Source: Candidatus Nezhaarchaeota archaeon (lineage in GTDB: Archaea > Thermoproteota > Methanomethylicia > Nezhaarchaeales > WYZ-LMO8). From it: a stretch of DNA of 64,000 nucleotides. The stretch covers positions 412,097 to 476,096 of the forward strand of contig JANXDO010000001.1 in the NCBI GenBank assembly GCA_025059375.1, read 5' to 3'. A model generated the notes under the pieces. The model searched no databases. It had not been told where the DNA came from and saw only the letters and a list, made by a program, of their open reading frames with translations. Below, one piece after another: positions 30,866 through 57,798 of the stretch (its first letter is position 1; the number at the start of each line of letters is the position of its first letter). Made by a program: the position numbers and the translations under genes.

Positions 30866-31504
30866 TCAGTTACAACATCAAGTGGTCACTTGGACTTCAT
30901 AAAACACTAGAAGATAAGAAGCTGACTTCCGTGAAGCTTCACTTTCACTACCTATTTCTCAAGCGGCATACCATAAATCAAAGTCCTAACTGAAAGTAAA
31001 GCTAGCAAGTTTAAAGTGCTCAGCATGGGCAATTAGACTGTAGTGCAACATAAGAATGCCTGTAACTTCTAGCGAGTTAACTGAAATGAGCACTGTGTAG
31101 CTGACTGATCATATTGAATTGAGTTTAAAATACCTCTTAAGGCACAAGCTGTCGATTACGACCTTATAGCGCTTATGTAACCTAATGTTGACCTTGAAAC
31201 GAAGTAAACAGTTCACTAACTAAGCATGCAAGTCCAGGCGCGACATCATGCTAGATTGCTGAACTCCACATTCTCTCAAATTAGAGTCTTACCTCTACTT
31301 CAACACTCCTCTTCAGATTAATATCTTCAGAGGAAATTAAGGGTCTGTTTCCGCCGACGGTTAAAACGCTATGTGTATTGTCTAGGACCTCCTACTCAAT
31401 AACAACTTTAATGTTACAAACTTGAAGTCAACAATGTCGAATCACGCATCCCAGCGAGTAAGTGTTATAGGCTTGGGCGTTAGGCTATTCTAGGGGCTGT
31501 AGCT
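30866..31504. other. 639-base spacer without recognised gene
   Basis: Stops are frequent in all frames and I see no tRNA or rRNA signature. The final 45 bases carry a TATA-like GTGTTATAGG (31461-31470) that should drive the AsnC-domain genes. The long stretch may be decayed sequence or hold an unrecognised non-coding RNA. Confidence 0.4.
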
Positions 31505-31735
31505 ATGATAAATGCATGCATCTTAGTTAGGACTGAAAGAGGTAGAAGTGATGATGTTGTTGCTAAGATAAGGCAGATTAAGGAGGCTAAGGTAGTGTTT
31601 CCAACACTTGGTCGATATGACGTGGTCGTCGACTTAGAGGCTGAGGACTTCAAGACTCTTGGTCAAGTCGTTCAAAGGATTAGTAGACTTTCAGGTGTCG
31701 TCTTCACAGAGACCCTTGTTGAGCTTCAGGCTTGA
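31505..31735 (+). CDS. Stand-alone Lrp/AsnC ligand-binding (RAM) domain protein
   Basis: 76 residues forming the alpha-beta sandwich of Lrp/AsnC effector domains without the DNA-binding helix-turn-helix. ACILVRTERGR, FPTLGRYDVVVDLEAED and VFTETLVELQA mark the strands and the effector loop. Such proteins assemble into octamer-type rings and bind amino acids, probably modulating full-length regulators. First of a tandem pair; stop overlaps the alternative start of the second. Confidence 0.85.
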   Translation: MINACILVRTERGRSDDVVAKIRQIKEAKVVFPTLGRYDVVVDLEAEDFKTLGQVVQRISRLSGVVFTETLVELQA

Positions 31736-31746
31736 GGTGTGTATTG

Positions 31747-31971
31747 ATGGTCAATGCTGTCGTATTAATTAAGAGCGTAGCTACTAAGCAGGATGAGCTT
31801 ATAAGTAAGCTGAAGGTCATGGAGCAAGTTAGAAAAGTGTATCCATGTTATGGTAGGTTCGACTTAGTGGTCTTTATCGACGTACCGGATGTTAATGCTG
31901 TTAAACTGCTTTCATTGAAGATAAACTCTCTGGATGGTGTCAGGAGCACCGAAACACTTCTTGAAGCCTAG
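31747..31971 (+). CDS. Second stand-alone Lrp/AsnC ligand-binding domain protein
   Basis: About 74 residues from the ATG at 31747 (a TTG at 31732 would overlap the upstream stop by 4). Same fold as its neighbour: VNAVVLIKSVATKQDELI, VYPCYGRFDLVVFIDVPD, STETLLEA. Sequence divergence between the two is large enough that they are old paralogues and may form a hetero-oligomer. Followed after 23 bases by hisIE. Confidence 0.84.
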   Translation: MVNAVVLIKSVATKQDELISKLKVMEQVRKVYPCYGRFDLVVFIDVPDVNAVKLLSLKINSLDGVRSTETLLEA

Positions 31972-48422: not shown

Positions 48423-49085
48423 CTACGAGCTGATCCTAAATCGCTTAGCTTGAGCTGTCCATAAGATCCTTGTTGGTGTTAATATCAAGTCGACGGGTAC
48501 ATCCCACTCATCCCTAGGCACGTAATAGACAACTTGGATGTCGTGGACTGTGGTGACCCTTAAAGTCTCATCCGTTATAGAGCCCGCATTGCTCCAAAGC
48601 TTGTACTCAATGTCAGAGAAACCTGTCCCCTTACCTAGCCTGTGACCCTCTAAGCTAACTGCGACGGAGCCCGCGACGAAGACGTCGACTCGGTAGTCAC
48701 CTGGCTTTACTGGTCTCCCGAGCTCCATGAACCCCTTTATGGTCGAGGCGTAGGCAGCATCCTTCGGCTTGTGAAGGGCCACGAAGCCCCTCGAGAGCCT
48801 CGGGGTCGCGACGATCAGTATCTTGCCGTCCCTCAAGACCATCTCTCTTAGGGCCCTCTGAGGAGAGTCTGGATTGCATAGCACAACCTCAGCTTCAACG
48901 TACTCGTCGATCGACCTCAGCTTGAGGGCAGCCTCCTCTGCACCCTTAAAGTTCGGGATCCTGCCGTAGATCGGGAATGGCGGGAGAGCTACATTCTTCT
49001 CCATCATGGCCCTCCAGACATCCATCCTAATCTTGTCCTTCAAGCTAATCGATGTCAAGCAAAACACCAAGAAATGACAGTACAA
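48423..49085 (-). CDS. 5-formyltetrahydrofolate cyclo-ligase-like protein
   Basis: 220 residues related to MTHFS/MTHFSD: DKIRMDVWRAMMEKNVALPPFPIYGRIPNFKGAEEAA at the start, LRDGKILIVATPRLSRGF in the centre, and GHRLGKGTGFSDIEYKLW near residue 150, which is the nucleotide/folate-site signature. Archaeal members probably do not act on folate; role unsettled. True start may be the TTG at 49043 (LKDKIRM) because the first 14 residues look non-native. GC content is visibly higher than in the left half of the window. Confidence 0.78.
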   Translation of the reverse strand: MYCHFLVFCLTSISLKDKIRMDVWRAMMEKNVALPPFPIYGRIPNFKGAEEAALKLRSIDEYVEAEVVLCNPDSPQRALREMVLRDGKILIVATPRLSRGFVALHKPKDAAYASTIKGFMELGRPVKPGDYRVDVFVAGSVAVSLEGHRLGKGTGFSDIEYKLWSNAGSITDETLRVTTVHDIQVVYYVPRDEWDVPVDLILTPTRILWTAQAKRFRISS

Positions 49086-53398: not shown

Positions 53399-55000
53399 TT
53401 ATGCGTGGAGGACTTGGTACATCTGTATCCATGCGAGAGCTGATAGGACTTGAACTGTTGTGGTGATGGAAGATATCTTTAGCCATGACCTCCAGCTAAC
53501 ATAAACCCCTCTCCTCTCAGCTATTGACACAGCAACTATGTTAGCCGTGGAGCCTATGGGCGTGTAGTTTCCACCAAGAACTCCCCCTGCAAGTAGGGCG
53601 AAGTATATGATCTCAGTGCTCAGCCCCGTCGTGTACATTAGGATTGCCATGGGTGTAAACGCTACAATCACTGAAAGGTTATCGAGAACAGCACTTAAGT
53701 ACGTTGAGCTGATCAGCATGATTGGTAGTATGAGCCAAGCAAAGTGGGAGAAGACGTAGGCAATCTTCACCATAGCTCCACAGTACAATAACGAGTAACC
53801 GAGTATGAATAGACCTATGAAGAACATTATGGCTGGCCACTCAACACTCTTCTCAATGTGTTTTGGTATATCCTCCATCGGGATTACTGAGATCCCGAGG
53901 ATGACGAAGATGTACGGGATGAAGGCAATGAGTGAGTGCGAATCAACTGGTGCATGGAACATGCTCTCCATTAAGTGGCTTATGGGCTCGTTCAGAGAGA
54001 TCATAGCTATGAAGGCGATAAGCAACGCTAATCCAAACCTAACGTTCTTGAAGGATCTCTTGTCTAAGCTCCTATAGTATCGCTCAACAAAGCTCTTTAA
54101 CTCGGAGGCCTTGCTCTTGACAGCCATGTCCATCTCGGCAATAAACTTTCTTTCAACGATCAGCAAGACCAGGAAGAGCACAACAAGCTCCATAAGTGCT
54201 AGCGGTAGAGCATAGCTTACATACGTTGAGAATGGCATCTTAGTGACAAAGAATAGATATATCCCAATTGGATTGCCGATGGGTAGCGCTAGGCTACCAG
54301 TGTTAGTGGCTAAGACAGCTATGATTAGGAGGCGCATCACGTCTACACCAAGAATGGAGGCCAGCTCGAAGACTAGTAGCGTGATGTAAACGATGCTCGT
54401 AACCTCATCAAGTATTGCTGCAGTAGTGAAGGATAAGAGCACTAGCAGTAAAAGCATGAATATAGAGTTGCCCCTACTTACCCTCACAATGTTTGCAGCC
54501 AAGAGCCTAAAAACACCCAATTCCCTCAGTATCCCTGCAAATATCATTGAGCCTATCAAGAAGAGTATCAGGTTCCACTCTATAGCCTCCTTAATAAGGA
54601 TTTGAGGCGGGGTGACAAAGAAGGTAGCCACAAGAAGACCCATAACTGCTAAGCCAACTCTCCACTCCATCCTCATTACTGTTCCAGCAACCACGAATAG
54701 GAATGTAGCCAACATAACTGCTTGAAGCAAAGCCATTTGCGTTGAATTTATGTCTACGTAGCCGGCATGATCGTGGTAGCCCCTGCCAGAGAGCCAGGCA
54801 TTTATGAGGGCCCTACCAATAGGGCTGCTCTCCTCAATCTTTATCGCCGACATCACGATGAAGGAGATAGTGAAAAGAGCAATGAATATCAGTAGCATCC
54901 TGTACACAGCTCTCAAACGCTTACACCTCCCCTCATCTTTCTCAGCGCTGTGACCCCTGTGACCCAGTTCACCAATAAATATTGATACTTCTCTCCACAT
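53399..55000 (-). CDS. ArsB/NhaD-type ion transporter
   Basis: 533 residues, 12-13 helices, ion transporter superfamily. FFVTPPQILIKEAIEWNLILFLIGSMIFAGILRELGVF near residue 130 and the two LDEVTSIVYITLLVF and LDNLSVIVAFTPMAILMYTTGL segments (aspartate re-entrant repeats) are diagnostic. NYTPIGSTANIVAVSIAERRG near the C-terminus. Could export arsenite or exchange Na+/H+; no ars genes adjacent. First 60 residues hydrophilic. Confidence 0.84.
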   Translation of the reverse strand: MWREVSIFIGELGHRGHSAEKDEGRCKRLRAVYRMLLIFIALFTISFIVMSAIKIEESSPIGRALINAWLSGRGYHDHAGYVDINSTQMALLQAVMLATFLFVVAGTVMRMEWRVGLAVMGLLVATFFVTPPQILIKEAIEWNLILFLIGSMIFAGILRELGVFRLLAANIVRVSRGNSIFMLLLLVLLSFTTAAILDEVTSIVYITLLVFELASILGVDVMRLLIIAVLATNTGSLALPIGNPIGIYLFFVTKMPFSTYVSYALPLALMELVVLFLVLLIVERKFIAEMDMAVKSKASELKSFVERYYRSLDKRSFKNVRFGLALLIAFIAMISLNEPISHLMESMFHAPVDSHSLIAFIPYIFVILGISVIPMEDIPKHIEKSVEWPAIMFFIGLFILGYSLLYCGAMVKIAYVFSHFAWLILPIMLISSTYLSAVLDNLSVIVAFTPMAILMYTTGLSTEIIYFALLAGGVLGGNYTPIGSTANIVAVSIAERRGVYVSWRSWLKISSITTTVQVLSALAWIQMYQVLHA

Positions 55001-55898
55001 CTAGAGGCTTATAAGGATTATCTACACTCAAAGCCCATTACGAACTGCAGCCAAAACAGAGGCTAAATTCGCAGAGAGTACTTAAACCACAAATACGCTC
55101 TCGCAATACCTCGCATGCCCTCTCAGCTAAGACATCATCATTAAAGCTAATAATCATAGCCAGAAGCGTCAGAAACCTGCCAATTATCATCAAGAAAAAG
55201 CCAAACAAACGTTAAAGCTGGTAACGAGAAAGCCAACAACTAACCCCCAGAGAACCTCAACCCATCTCAACTTCAAGTTATTAATGAGATTATTAAGAGT
55301 ATTATTATGACGATCAGCGAGCAGCGATGTTATGCCATGAATCTTTATGATGCTCGCTAACCGAATACTATGAAGTTCTCGTAACTCAACACACCTCTAA
55401 AACTTGAGAGGCTCATCGATCGCTAATGATCATCGTCGACCATATTATTAACTATTATTATAATGTTTTAAGTTGAGTCAATCAAGCTAACCTCCACCTC
55501 TATGATAAAGATCGTAACGCTACAACATAGTTAAACACTTAATCGTGATAACCACAATAACCCATTAAAAACAGTAAACCATGGGTCAAGCCAGCATCAA
55601 TACTACATCAATGACGACCTGCACTAATGGCATCATTAAATTAGAACCATGTATTATTACAATTATAAATCAAACACTAGATACATTACATAACACTAAT
55701 ATAAATTACTTCAAGGCACACAAACGTGTCAACTAATTTCAAGCAGCCTATGTAAAAGCTAGTATGTAAACCAGTAATATATGAGACATTAATATCGATT
55801 ATTTACAAGCCATACAATCAAAACCGTTTATAACATTTATTGTGGCAACCTCACAGCAGCAATTAGCTCTCCAAGTTAGTGTTTGAGTAGCTAGTATT

Positions 55899-55986
55899 CA
55901 AACATGTAGCCTTGTAGAACATGTTTGCGGGGACCTCCCCACAAACATATTCCCTGATGAGACCCCATGGTGTGCAACATGTTTGT
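55899..55986. repeat. Four inverted copies of an ACATGTTTG element, two with G-strings
   Basis: Copy 1 (minus) 55899-55907 CAAACATGT; copy 2 (plus) 55918-55933 AACATGTTTGCGGGGA; copy 3 (minus) 55936-55951, reading AATATGTTTGTGGGGA on the minus strand; copy 4 (plus) 55976-55986 AACATGTTTGT without the G-string. Copies 2 and 3 agree at 14 of 16 positions and face each other over a 2-base centre, so a long hairpin or cruciform is possible. Motif plus G-string resembles the layout of archaeal origin recognition boxes, though not their exact consensus. Confidence 0.7.
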
Positions 55987-56422
55987 TCGCAAAATAAAAG
56001 ATCAATTAATGCGGTTGTTTTATTTCTGATTATAAATAACTTGTATATAACGATTTACTTAATGTATATCAGTTATACATAATGTGTGAATACTTTGCAC
56101 GCTAATTTGTTAGTGTTTAACATTAGACATTATTGTTTCACGTCTTGATTGATTAGGTTTTTTATCAAAGTTTAATGACTAGGTTTTACGTGTAAGACTT
56201 GCTTTAATACTTTTGGCGATTATTTAGGGTTTAAGTTAATGAGTTCCTACACTTATCGCTTAATGATTACTATCAATGAGTTTTTAAACCTCCTTTTCAT
56301 TAATGTTTATGTTGGCTCAAGGCATTCAGCTGTGATGTGGCATGATGTACTGCGTGGTGGAGCTTAACTACACCACCCTTGCCTAGATTTCAGTTTATGG
56401 AGTCAGTGATGCGTTGTGATGA

Positions 56423-56451
56423 TATTAATAATAATCATTGTATTATTAATA
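56423..56451. repeat. AT-only inverted repeat
   Basis: TATTAATAATA (56423-56433) and TATTATTAATA (56441-56451) are exact reverse complements across seven bases. Lies in the right half of the gene-free region, about 470 bases from the G-string repeats and 230 bases from the end of the DUF917 gene. Could be an unwinding element or a transcription end. Confidence 0.5.
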
Positions 56452-56682
56452 ATACTCATGTTTGCGATGCAGCATCAAGATCTAGGTGCTAAGTTTGTGA
56501 TGAGTTCACTTAAAGGTTTACAGCATAAGGAGGTGTGAGATTGCCTAATAAGTTATGGCTAATGATGTTGTGCTTGCATGGGCATTCCAGTAATCTATCA
56601 GTTTAGATTTCGTTGAGCTTACCGCCCCCTCATGAGTGTAGTGATAAAAAGTGTAAAGAAGGTGGTGTTGGTTTTAATTGGT

Positions 56683-57798
56683 TTAGGGGTTCAGCTTCTC
56701 TATGGGTATGTAGTCTCGCGTATAGCCCATTCTCTCTAAGATGTGTCTCCAAACATCGAATGCTTTGGGATGCTTCCTCCATCTCTCAGAAGCAGGTAAC
56801 CCTAAGATAGCTATCTTCATTCCCTCGGATAGGTCGGCATTAGTTATTGCCTCTCCACCTAGTGTGAGTAGGCATATTAGGTCGGGGACCATGGCTGCGG
56901 GCTCACCTGGCCCCTTCCATGCTATCATGTTTTCGTTCTTAAAGTCAACGTAGAACTCCTTACCCTTAAACTCATTGAGCCCTTCTAGAGTGCTTCTACC
57001 AAAGTCGAAGCCAGCGACAGTTTTTATCTCAACCTTTTTGACTACACCTTTAAAGAGTAGGTAGGCTCCTGTTTGTTTGAGCACAGCATTTACGGGGTCT
57101 TTACCCTGCTCTTTAGCGGTCCTTATGGTTCTCCCAATTTCTAAGGACCTTGATATAACGTTTGGCTCTAAGCACTGCTTTATTTGCCATCCACTTACAA
57201 CCCAAGTTCCTAGACCAGCTAGCATGCCGAAAGCTACGGTTACATGTCTAGCTATTTCTTCAGCTGTGTGGCCATCGAGGGGGTTAGCGAGCCACCCAGC
57301 AACTATGTTGCCCACTTTATCGGCAACGACAAATGGTGATACTGGTAGGCAGTAGAGGTTGTATAGGGTTGTGCCGAGTTCAGGTACAGCTCTACCACCT
57401 GTGCCATCAGCATCGACTATTGTTAACTTCTTGATTGCAGCAACGTATATGGGCGTTATGGTATTGAAGCCTCCAGTTTCACCTGGCATGATGTACCTGA
57501 ACTTGATACCAACCATTGAATAGAGCCTTTCTAAACCTTCAAAGGCGTATAGAGCCTCAGGCCCAAACCCCTTCTCCTTGAGGGCTTTAGGAGCCCCCAT
57601 GCCAGCTATCATAGCGACGTACTCGTTATCTGAGACTTCATCAGGACTTACTAACTTTACCTCTCCAGTTACCTTGGATATCTCGTCGACCAACTTTAAA
57701 CCATTTTCTGGAGAACCTCCACCACCACTTCCAAGGAAAGTAGCCCCAACAACTATATCTCTTAAATCCTGTATGGAGATGATCCTCAACACACTCAC
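56683..57798 (-). CDS. DUF917-family protein (S-methyl thiohydantoin desulfurase-like)
   Basis: 371 residues. LRIISIQDLRDIVVGATFLGSGGGGSPENG at the N-terminus, then YVAMIAGMGAPKALKEKGF, GETGGFNTITPIYVAA, VDADGTGGRAVPELG and PAMVPDLICLLTLGGEAITNADL cover the DUF917 fold, usually found with hydantoinase/hydantoin-racemase systems. Predicted soluble. Divergent from the NCS1 permease by 79 bases; shared function in N-heterocycle use is inferred from that pairing. Confidence 0.85.
   Translation of the reverse strand: MSVLRIISIQDLRDIVVGATFLGSGGGGSPENGLKLVDEISKVTGEVKLVSPDEVSDNEYVAMIAGMGAPKALKEKGFGPEALYAFEGLERLYSMVGIKFRYIMPGETGGFNTITPIYVAAIKKLTIVDADGTGGRAVPELGTTLYNLYCLPVSPFVVADKVGNIVAGWLANPLDGHTAEEIARHVTVAFGMLAGLGTWVVSGWQIKQCLEPNVISRSLEIGRTIRTAKEQGKDPVNAVLKQTGAYLLFKGVVKKVEIKTVAGFDFGRSTLEGLNEFKGKEFYVDFKNENMIAWKGPGEPAAMVPDLICLLTLGGEAITNADLSEGMKIAILGLPASERWRKHPKAFDVWRHILERMGYTRDYIPIEKLNP

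Follow-up and report, generated by a model that had tools for sequence, protein, structure and literature searches.

To our knowledge, replication origins have been mapped in only few archaeal groups, and we found no published work on those of the archaeal group to which the present genome belongs. In the canonical oriC1, an inverted pair of ORBs flanks an AT-rich unwinding region and is bound by Orc1-1. Sulfolobus oriC2 (cdc6-3, mini-ORBs) and oriC3 (whiP) are second and third origins of the Thermoproteota, and such origins adjoin their initiator gene (PMC4010727). The oriC of Pyrococcus abyssi lies at the amino-keto peak (PMC4164010), origins of Sulfolobales and Aeropyrum carry the ucm motif (PMC12141716), and the archaeal dif site is built of 11-bp arms around a 6-bp spacer (PMC2958812).

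The window, that is, the whole stretch of 64,000 nucleotides analysed here (C1:412097-476096), belongs to a genome of 1.47 Mb in 14 contigs that is 96% complete (G000). For one of its proteins, the closest relatives with a name come from Ca. Nezhaarchaeota WYZ-LMO8 and other archaeal MAGs. A sequence-only reading had proposed that a long spacer in this window is a chromosomal replication origin without an adjacent cdc6 gene. The features of the locus are as follows, in window positions.

48423-49085, minus strand: 5-formyltetrahydrofolate cyclo-ligase, 0.7-7 kb from the element in four genera
53399-55000, minus strand: left neighbour, a CitMHS/ArsB-type permease whose start faces the spacer
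55001-56682, no strand: AT-rich, gene-free spacer of 1,682 bp, left half C/A-rich, right half G/T-rich
55875-55954, plus strand: conserved four-box element (model R1), 80 bp, one copy in each of four genera
55880-55886, plus strand: box 1, TGTTTGA (TGTTTSA in relatives), 42 bp start-to-start to box 3 in four genera
55898-55904, minus strand: box 2, inverted copy TCAAACA, invariant in four genera
55922-55928, plus strand: box 3, TGTTTGC followed by a G-string, from the alignment of four genera
55929-55938, no strand: core GGGGACCTCC, G-string/C-string, nearly palindromic, between boxes 3 and 4
55941-55947, minus strand: box 4, inverted copy ACAAACA, from the alignment of four genera
55978-55985, plus strand: extra box-like copy CATGTTTG, genus-specific, without G-string, not conserved in the alignment
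55990-56090, no strand: A+T-rich tract, candidate unwinding region, 22% GC (78% A+T)
56683-57798, minus strand: right neighbour, an S-Me-THD (DUF917-type) protein whose end faces the spacer

Gene calling relied on a simple ORF caller with a cut-off of 100 aa, and the skew and spacer statistics of G000 cover its contigs C1 and C4, 752 kb in all. Among the 106 spacers of at least 250 bp on these contigs, the one at 55001-56682 is the longest. No ORF of at least 100 aa lies in it (the longest wholly inside has 56 aa), no tRNA was found, no Rfam family and hence no structured RNA of a known family was matched, and its GC content is 0.359 against 0.456 for the contig. The description of a gene-free, AT-rich spacer of 1.68 kb is thus borne out, as is that of an origin candidate without cdc6 beside it, the neighbours being the permease and the S-Me-THD protein.

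The left part of the spacer (55001-55916) has a GC skew of -0.23, an A-T skew of +0.19 and a keto content of 0.40, and the right part (55953-56682) shows values of +0.20, -0.16 and 0.59, respectively. When a keto-switch statistic was calculated for the same 106 spacers, this one ranked first with 7.9, the next reaching 4.05, and the maxima obtained were 4.7 in 2000 shuffles and 5.8 in 2000 shuffles of 20-bp blocks. The skew switch that had been read at about 55.95 kb therefore holds in its direction, from C/A to G/T, and lies beyond all shuffles, but its statistical point falls at position 55874, near 55.87 kb. A second comparison, of the left-right keto difference in 106 spacers of at least 500 bp from three genomes, again placed the spacer first (0.183; mean 0.013, sd 0.042), and spacers at the same locus of a relative, G005, ranked 2nd and 4th. 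One spacer of that genome (G005:C1:1317336-1318178), about 1-2 kb from the element described below, has the second-strongest C/A-to-G/T difference among the spacers compared.

The inverted repeats with G-strings that had been noticed at the switch proved to be part of a larger arrangement at 55875-55954, and the A+T-rich tract to their right is equally confirmed at 55990-56090. The repeats themselves, GAACATGTTTGCGGGGA and TCCCCACAAACATATTC, have 17 nt each with a gap of 2 nt (55917-55952). All four copies of CATGTTTG in the window fall within the spacer, a clustering with a Poisson P of about 2e-7 when the density elsewhere on C1 and C4 is taken as the expectation, for an 8-mer that was itself chosen. 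Across four genera the element follows the formula TGTTTSA-N11-TCAAACA, then 42 bp on TGTTTGA-GGGGACCTCC-N2-NCAAACA, so that the four boxes form two inverted pairs with an invariant 42-bp phasing. The ungapped alignment of 80 bp has 41 invariant columns and identities of 64-71%, and nine of the ten bases of the core do not vary. Several conserved inverted recognition boxes, as a replicator would need, are therefore present in all four genera.

The relatives G005, G001 and G002 each belong to another genus and, together with G000, make up four genera of one family. A BLAST search of the whole spacer in the family gave nothing outside its own genome. The counterpart in G005 was found in the spacer C1:1315921-1316516, after which a pattern search added the two further genera; a control search with the reversed pattern gave no match. 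With a sequence model, one strong copy per genome was obtained in the four genera (E 1e-20 to 1e-22), and none at E<=0.001 in 394 other genomes of the phylum. Model hits outside the family with E of 0.01-0.6 were taken as chance, those inspected lying mostly inside reading frames, and an all-against-all BLAST of the spacers of G000 against those of G005 was uninformative, most of its matches being tRNA genes and coding sequence without annotation. The model did not find the element in G004, nor was it found in G003, where the absence may be a draft gap, since the neighbouring cyclo-ligase gene is missing too.

A block with the 5-formyltetrahydrofolate cyclo-ligase and, both named by eye, a topoisomerase and a CBS-domain protein accompanies the element in the four genera, and the element is oriented in the same way relative to this block in each of them. 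The immediate neighbours vary: a permease in G000 and a similar one, by eye, in G001, other genes in G005, and a VapC-like gene with small ORFs in G002. In the relative L006, the S-Me-THD gene has no long spacer beside it. In G001 the element lies in a region of about 3.4 kb (C1:193.8-197.2 kb) without convincing genes. The 250 bp on either side of the element have 24-37% GC in the four genera, compared with 45-53% for their contigs; together with the tract in the window, these flanks provide the AT-rich region in an intergenic spacer that unwinding at a replicator would call for. Elsewhere in the window (31484-31971), two overlapping frames of about 80 aa, below the ORF cut-off, resemble by eye an Lrp/AsnC effector domain and have 74% DNA identity to G005.

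The four-box element is a conserved, single-copy, non-coding sequence with AT-rich flanks, located at the strongest local composition switch in two genera, and its conservation as a single copy in four genera argues that it is functional. Since its neighbours differ among genera, it is not the promoter of one gene. It could instead be a protein-binding or regulatory site, either an array for a regulator or the start of divergent long non-coding transcripts, with transcription causing the local asymmetry. Operators of regulators, too, typically consist of conserved inverted boxes, transcription running both ways from the element would make its left side C/A-rich and its right side G/T-rich, and the right half of the element matches the reverse strand as well in the sequence model, being nearly palindromic. 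We nevertheless find this reading quite unlikely, given that the flanking genes differ in the four genera, with the nearest gene up to about 1 kb away, that no Rfam family is matched, and that an ordinary regulon would hardly have just one copy in each genome. A relic or mobile-element insertion, such as the decayed origin of a plasmid or virus that no longer has a function, would fit the frequent derivation of archaeal secondary origins from captured elements (PMC4010727). The geometry conserved across four genera, whose 80-bp sequences are 64-71% identical, the lack of an IMG/VR match to the core pattern and the lack of an integrase in the genome make it very improbable.

Three orc1/cdc6 genes were found in G000, at C1:1778, at C1:498288 and on C4 (76k). 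The first (C1:1.7-2.9 kb) is the Orc1-1 ortholog (2qby_A, 436 bits) and is separated from the spacer by about 465 kb, so the link to orc1-1 that characterizes a canonical oriC1 is not seen here. The second (C1:498288-499442) is a diverged Orc1/Cdc6 paralog outside the window, with 1fnn as its best solved relative. It is the nearest to the spacer, which no orc1/cdc6 gene adjoins as an initiator would adjoin its replicator. Seen from the element, the paralog is on the right-hand side and faces away, the distances being 30 kb (G000), 50 kb (G001) and about 17 kb (G005), the last of them assuming that the end of C1 is joined to the start of C2, as synteny indicates. Strand-corrected skew shows no turn at the gene at C1:1778 or at that on C4, and a search for copies of the repeat near cdc6 genes, as the sequence-only reading had advised, found none on C1 and C4. 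Behind the paralog, both G000 (C1:498288-500730, which is locus L004:1492-3949) and G005 (C2:10246-12664) have a small ORF and then a gene that by eye encodes a RadA-like recombinase.

A canonical oriC1 exists elsewhere in these genomes. Scanning with the common ORB motif of Ori-Finder 2 (PMC4164010) revealed an inverted ORB pair at 635.2-635.4 kb in G005 and one in G000 at C3:70712-70905 (L222:1501-1694), on another contig than the window. Such pairs, 150-210 bp apart, recur across the class (also in L221, L223, L224, L218, L219, L228 and others), and in the order of the window they stand beside a tRNA-Met gene. No orc1/cdc6 gene was found beside them in loci of 3 kb, and the orc1-1 gene of G005 is 230 kb away. 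Across the class this oriC1 is flanked by two small proteins of about 137 and 100 aa with weak helix-turn-helix matches (genes at L224:2053-2466, L222:698-1114, L217:540-836 and 1716-2129, L228:1190-1492 and L214:306-620), which may be regulators or initiation factors linked to the origin. At oriC1 the local sign is C/A-to-G/T in seven of seven genomes of the order (G000, G001, G003, G005, G037, G038 and G039), although the seven sequences are related and amount to one line of evidence; it is the same sign as at the spacer, and distant class members have no consistent one. Within the spacer, the best match to the ORB consensus TCCASTKGAAAYRAAGGGGT has 7 mismatches of 20 and no inverted pair of it was seen. 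The element of the spacer is not the canonical oriC1, and the proposal that it is the main chromosomal origin is not supported, given an oriC1 on another contig and the skew of G005 described next.

Because gene strand dominates the plain cumulative GC skew of C1, that curve was uninformative and was replaced by strand-corrected skew at fourfold sites. In G005, which was covered up to the last 59 kb of C2, with the join between the C1 end and the C2 start inferred from synteny, the keto skew has two breakpoints: a maximum at 590-640 kb and a minimum at 1360-1420 kb (90% bootstrap intervals). OriC1 (635.3 kb) falls inside the interval of the maximum, and its antipode (1381 kb) inside that of the minimum. 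The minimum is 45-105 kb away from the element (1316 kb), which lies in the same broad valley; this valley is disturbed by a block at H2 38-75 kb that is inverted and across the element in G000. Skew alone thus places oriC1 at one turning point of G005 and the element in the broad valley on the other side; that the element is the single main origin, as G005 had suggested, was dropped after the ORB scan and the breakpoint bootstrap. Along C1 of G000 a skew of -0.09 dwindles to about zero over the interval 330-468 kb and remains near zero beyond it. A sharp switch of the genome-scale skew, as the sequence-only reading expected at the spacer, is not seen on this contig. In the assembly of G001 the local strand polarity at the element is reversed compared with G000 and G005, and there is no turn within the 380 kb around the element. 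Intergenic-only binned GC skew had the same sign as fourfold sites but was noisy.

These observations bear on a further possibility, namely that forks from oriC1 meet near the element, which would be a fixed replication terminus or a centromere-like chromosome-segregation site. It requires that composition turns at a fixed, protein-bound element and that the leading strand is C/A-rich in this lineage. The maximum on oriC1, the minimum at its antipode with the element in the same valley, the clustering of tRNA and rRNA genes around oriC1, and the fading of skew towards the spacer, as at broad archaeal termination zones (PMC2958812), all agree with it. A C/A-rich leading strand, however, would be the opposite of that in P. 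abyssi (PMC4164010) and of the local sign at oriC1 in all seven genomes of the order, and we consider this possibility unlikely. A Xer/dif version of it is unlikely in particular, since no tyrosine recombinase was found: in the 96%-complete G000 there was no match to PF00589 at E<=1e-5, and 14 of 14 controls matched. As a side observation, G000 has no XerA and no obvious dimer-resolution system. The element resembles dif as a conserved, single-copy, intergenic inverted repeat that is possibly in the terminus half, but its 11-bp arms would have an 11-bp spacer, as between CTCAAACATGT and ACATGATTGAG of G001, and its other box pair differs from the dif geometry as well. That it is a novel type of fixed, protein-bound site for termination or segregation in a Xer-less archaeon, near the antipode of oriC1 and with a polarity reversed relative to other archaea, we regard as rather unlikely. 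If the element is a terminus, we know of no description of such a site in archaea without Xer.

The signals of replication polarity conflict. If the G/T-rich strand is the leading one, as at the oriC of P. abyssi, the valley of G005 is the origin side, and the operons rpoA1-S12-S7-EF1A and L3-L4-L23-L2 of that genome are co-directional with a fork from the side of the element. For the rRNA operon at 688-693 kb this holds only if the terminus is located beyond that operon; with a terminus at 590-640 kb it would be head-on. None of the tRNA genes found in G000 and G005 falls in the roughly 400 kb on the left side of the element.

A second origin is the most likely explanation, likelier than a terminus or segregation site, and we lean, with modest confidence, towards the view that the spacer is a second, lineage-specific replication origin of this Nezhaarchaeota-type archaeon, distinct from oriC1. 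The earlier suggestion, that this is a second origin or one that uses another initiator, is still the best interpretation in the light of the conserved element, the local switch and the AT-rich tract. It is supported by the strength of that switch, by an element that is syntenic and co-oriented, by the linked Orc1/Cdc6 paralog, by a switch sign equal to that of oriC1 and by the co-directional operons of G005. It is weakened by the oriC1 elsewhere, by a G005 minimum that fits the antipode of this oriC1, by the reversed sign and lack of a turn in G001, by the fading skew on the contig of the window, by tRNA and rRNA genes on the oriC1 side and by boxes unlike the common ORB consensus. An initiator of the Orc1/Cdc6 family would bind the boxes, with the G-strings setting polarity, MCM would be loaded, and the AT-rich tract next to the element would be unwound. 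As initiator, the best candidate would be the paralog at C1:498288-499442, whose side and strand with respect to the element are the same in three genera. Since genome-scale skew does not turn exactly at the element, such an origin may be weak, late, or used in some lineages only.

What makes the locus of interest is a precise 80-bp element shared by four genera of an uncultured lineage, and with it an oriC1 that is detached from every orc1/cdc6 gene seen. Like the ucm motif, the element would be a conserved origin motif that is not an ORB, and ucm itself is not enriched in the window (12 matches with up to 2 mismatches, 19 expected). It shares with oriC1 an AT-rich intergenic spacer, inverted boxes ending in G-strings and, within this order, the sign of the local switch, but its boxes read TGTTTGA-GGGG where oriC1 has TCCASTKGAAAYRAAGGGGT, and they form two tight inverted pairs where the ORBs of oriC1 are 150-210 bp apart. 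With oriC2 and oriC3 of Sulfolobus it would have in common the status of an additional origin, a box type of its own and, probably, its own Orc1/Cdc6 paralog; it differs from them in that the nearest orc1/cdc6 gene is 17-50 kb away. If the second origin is real, the element and its initiator would form a replicator-initiator pair 17-50 kb apart, with a new type of box.
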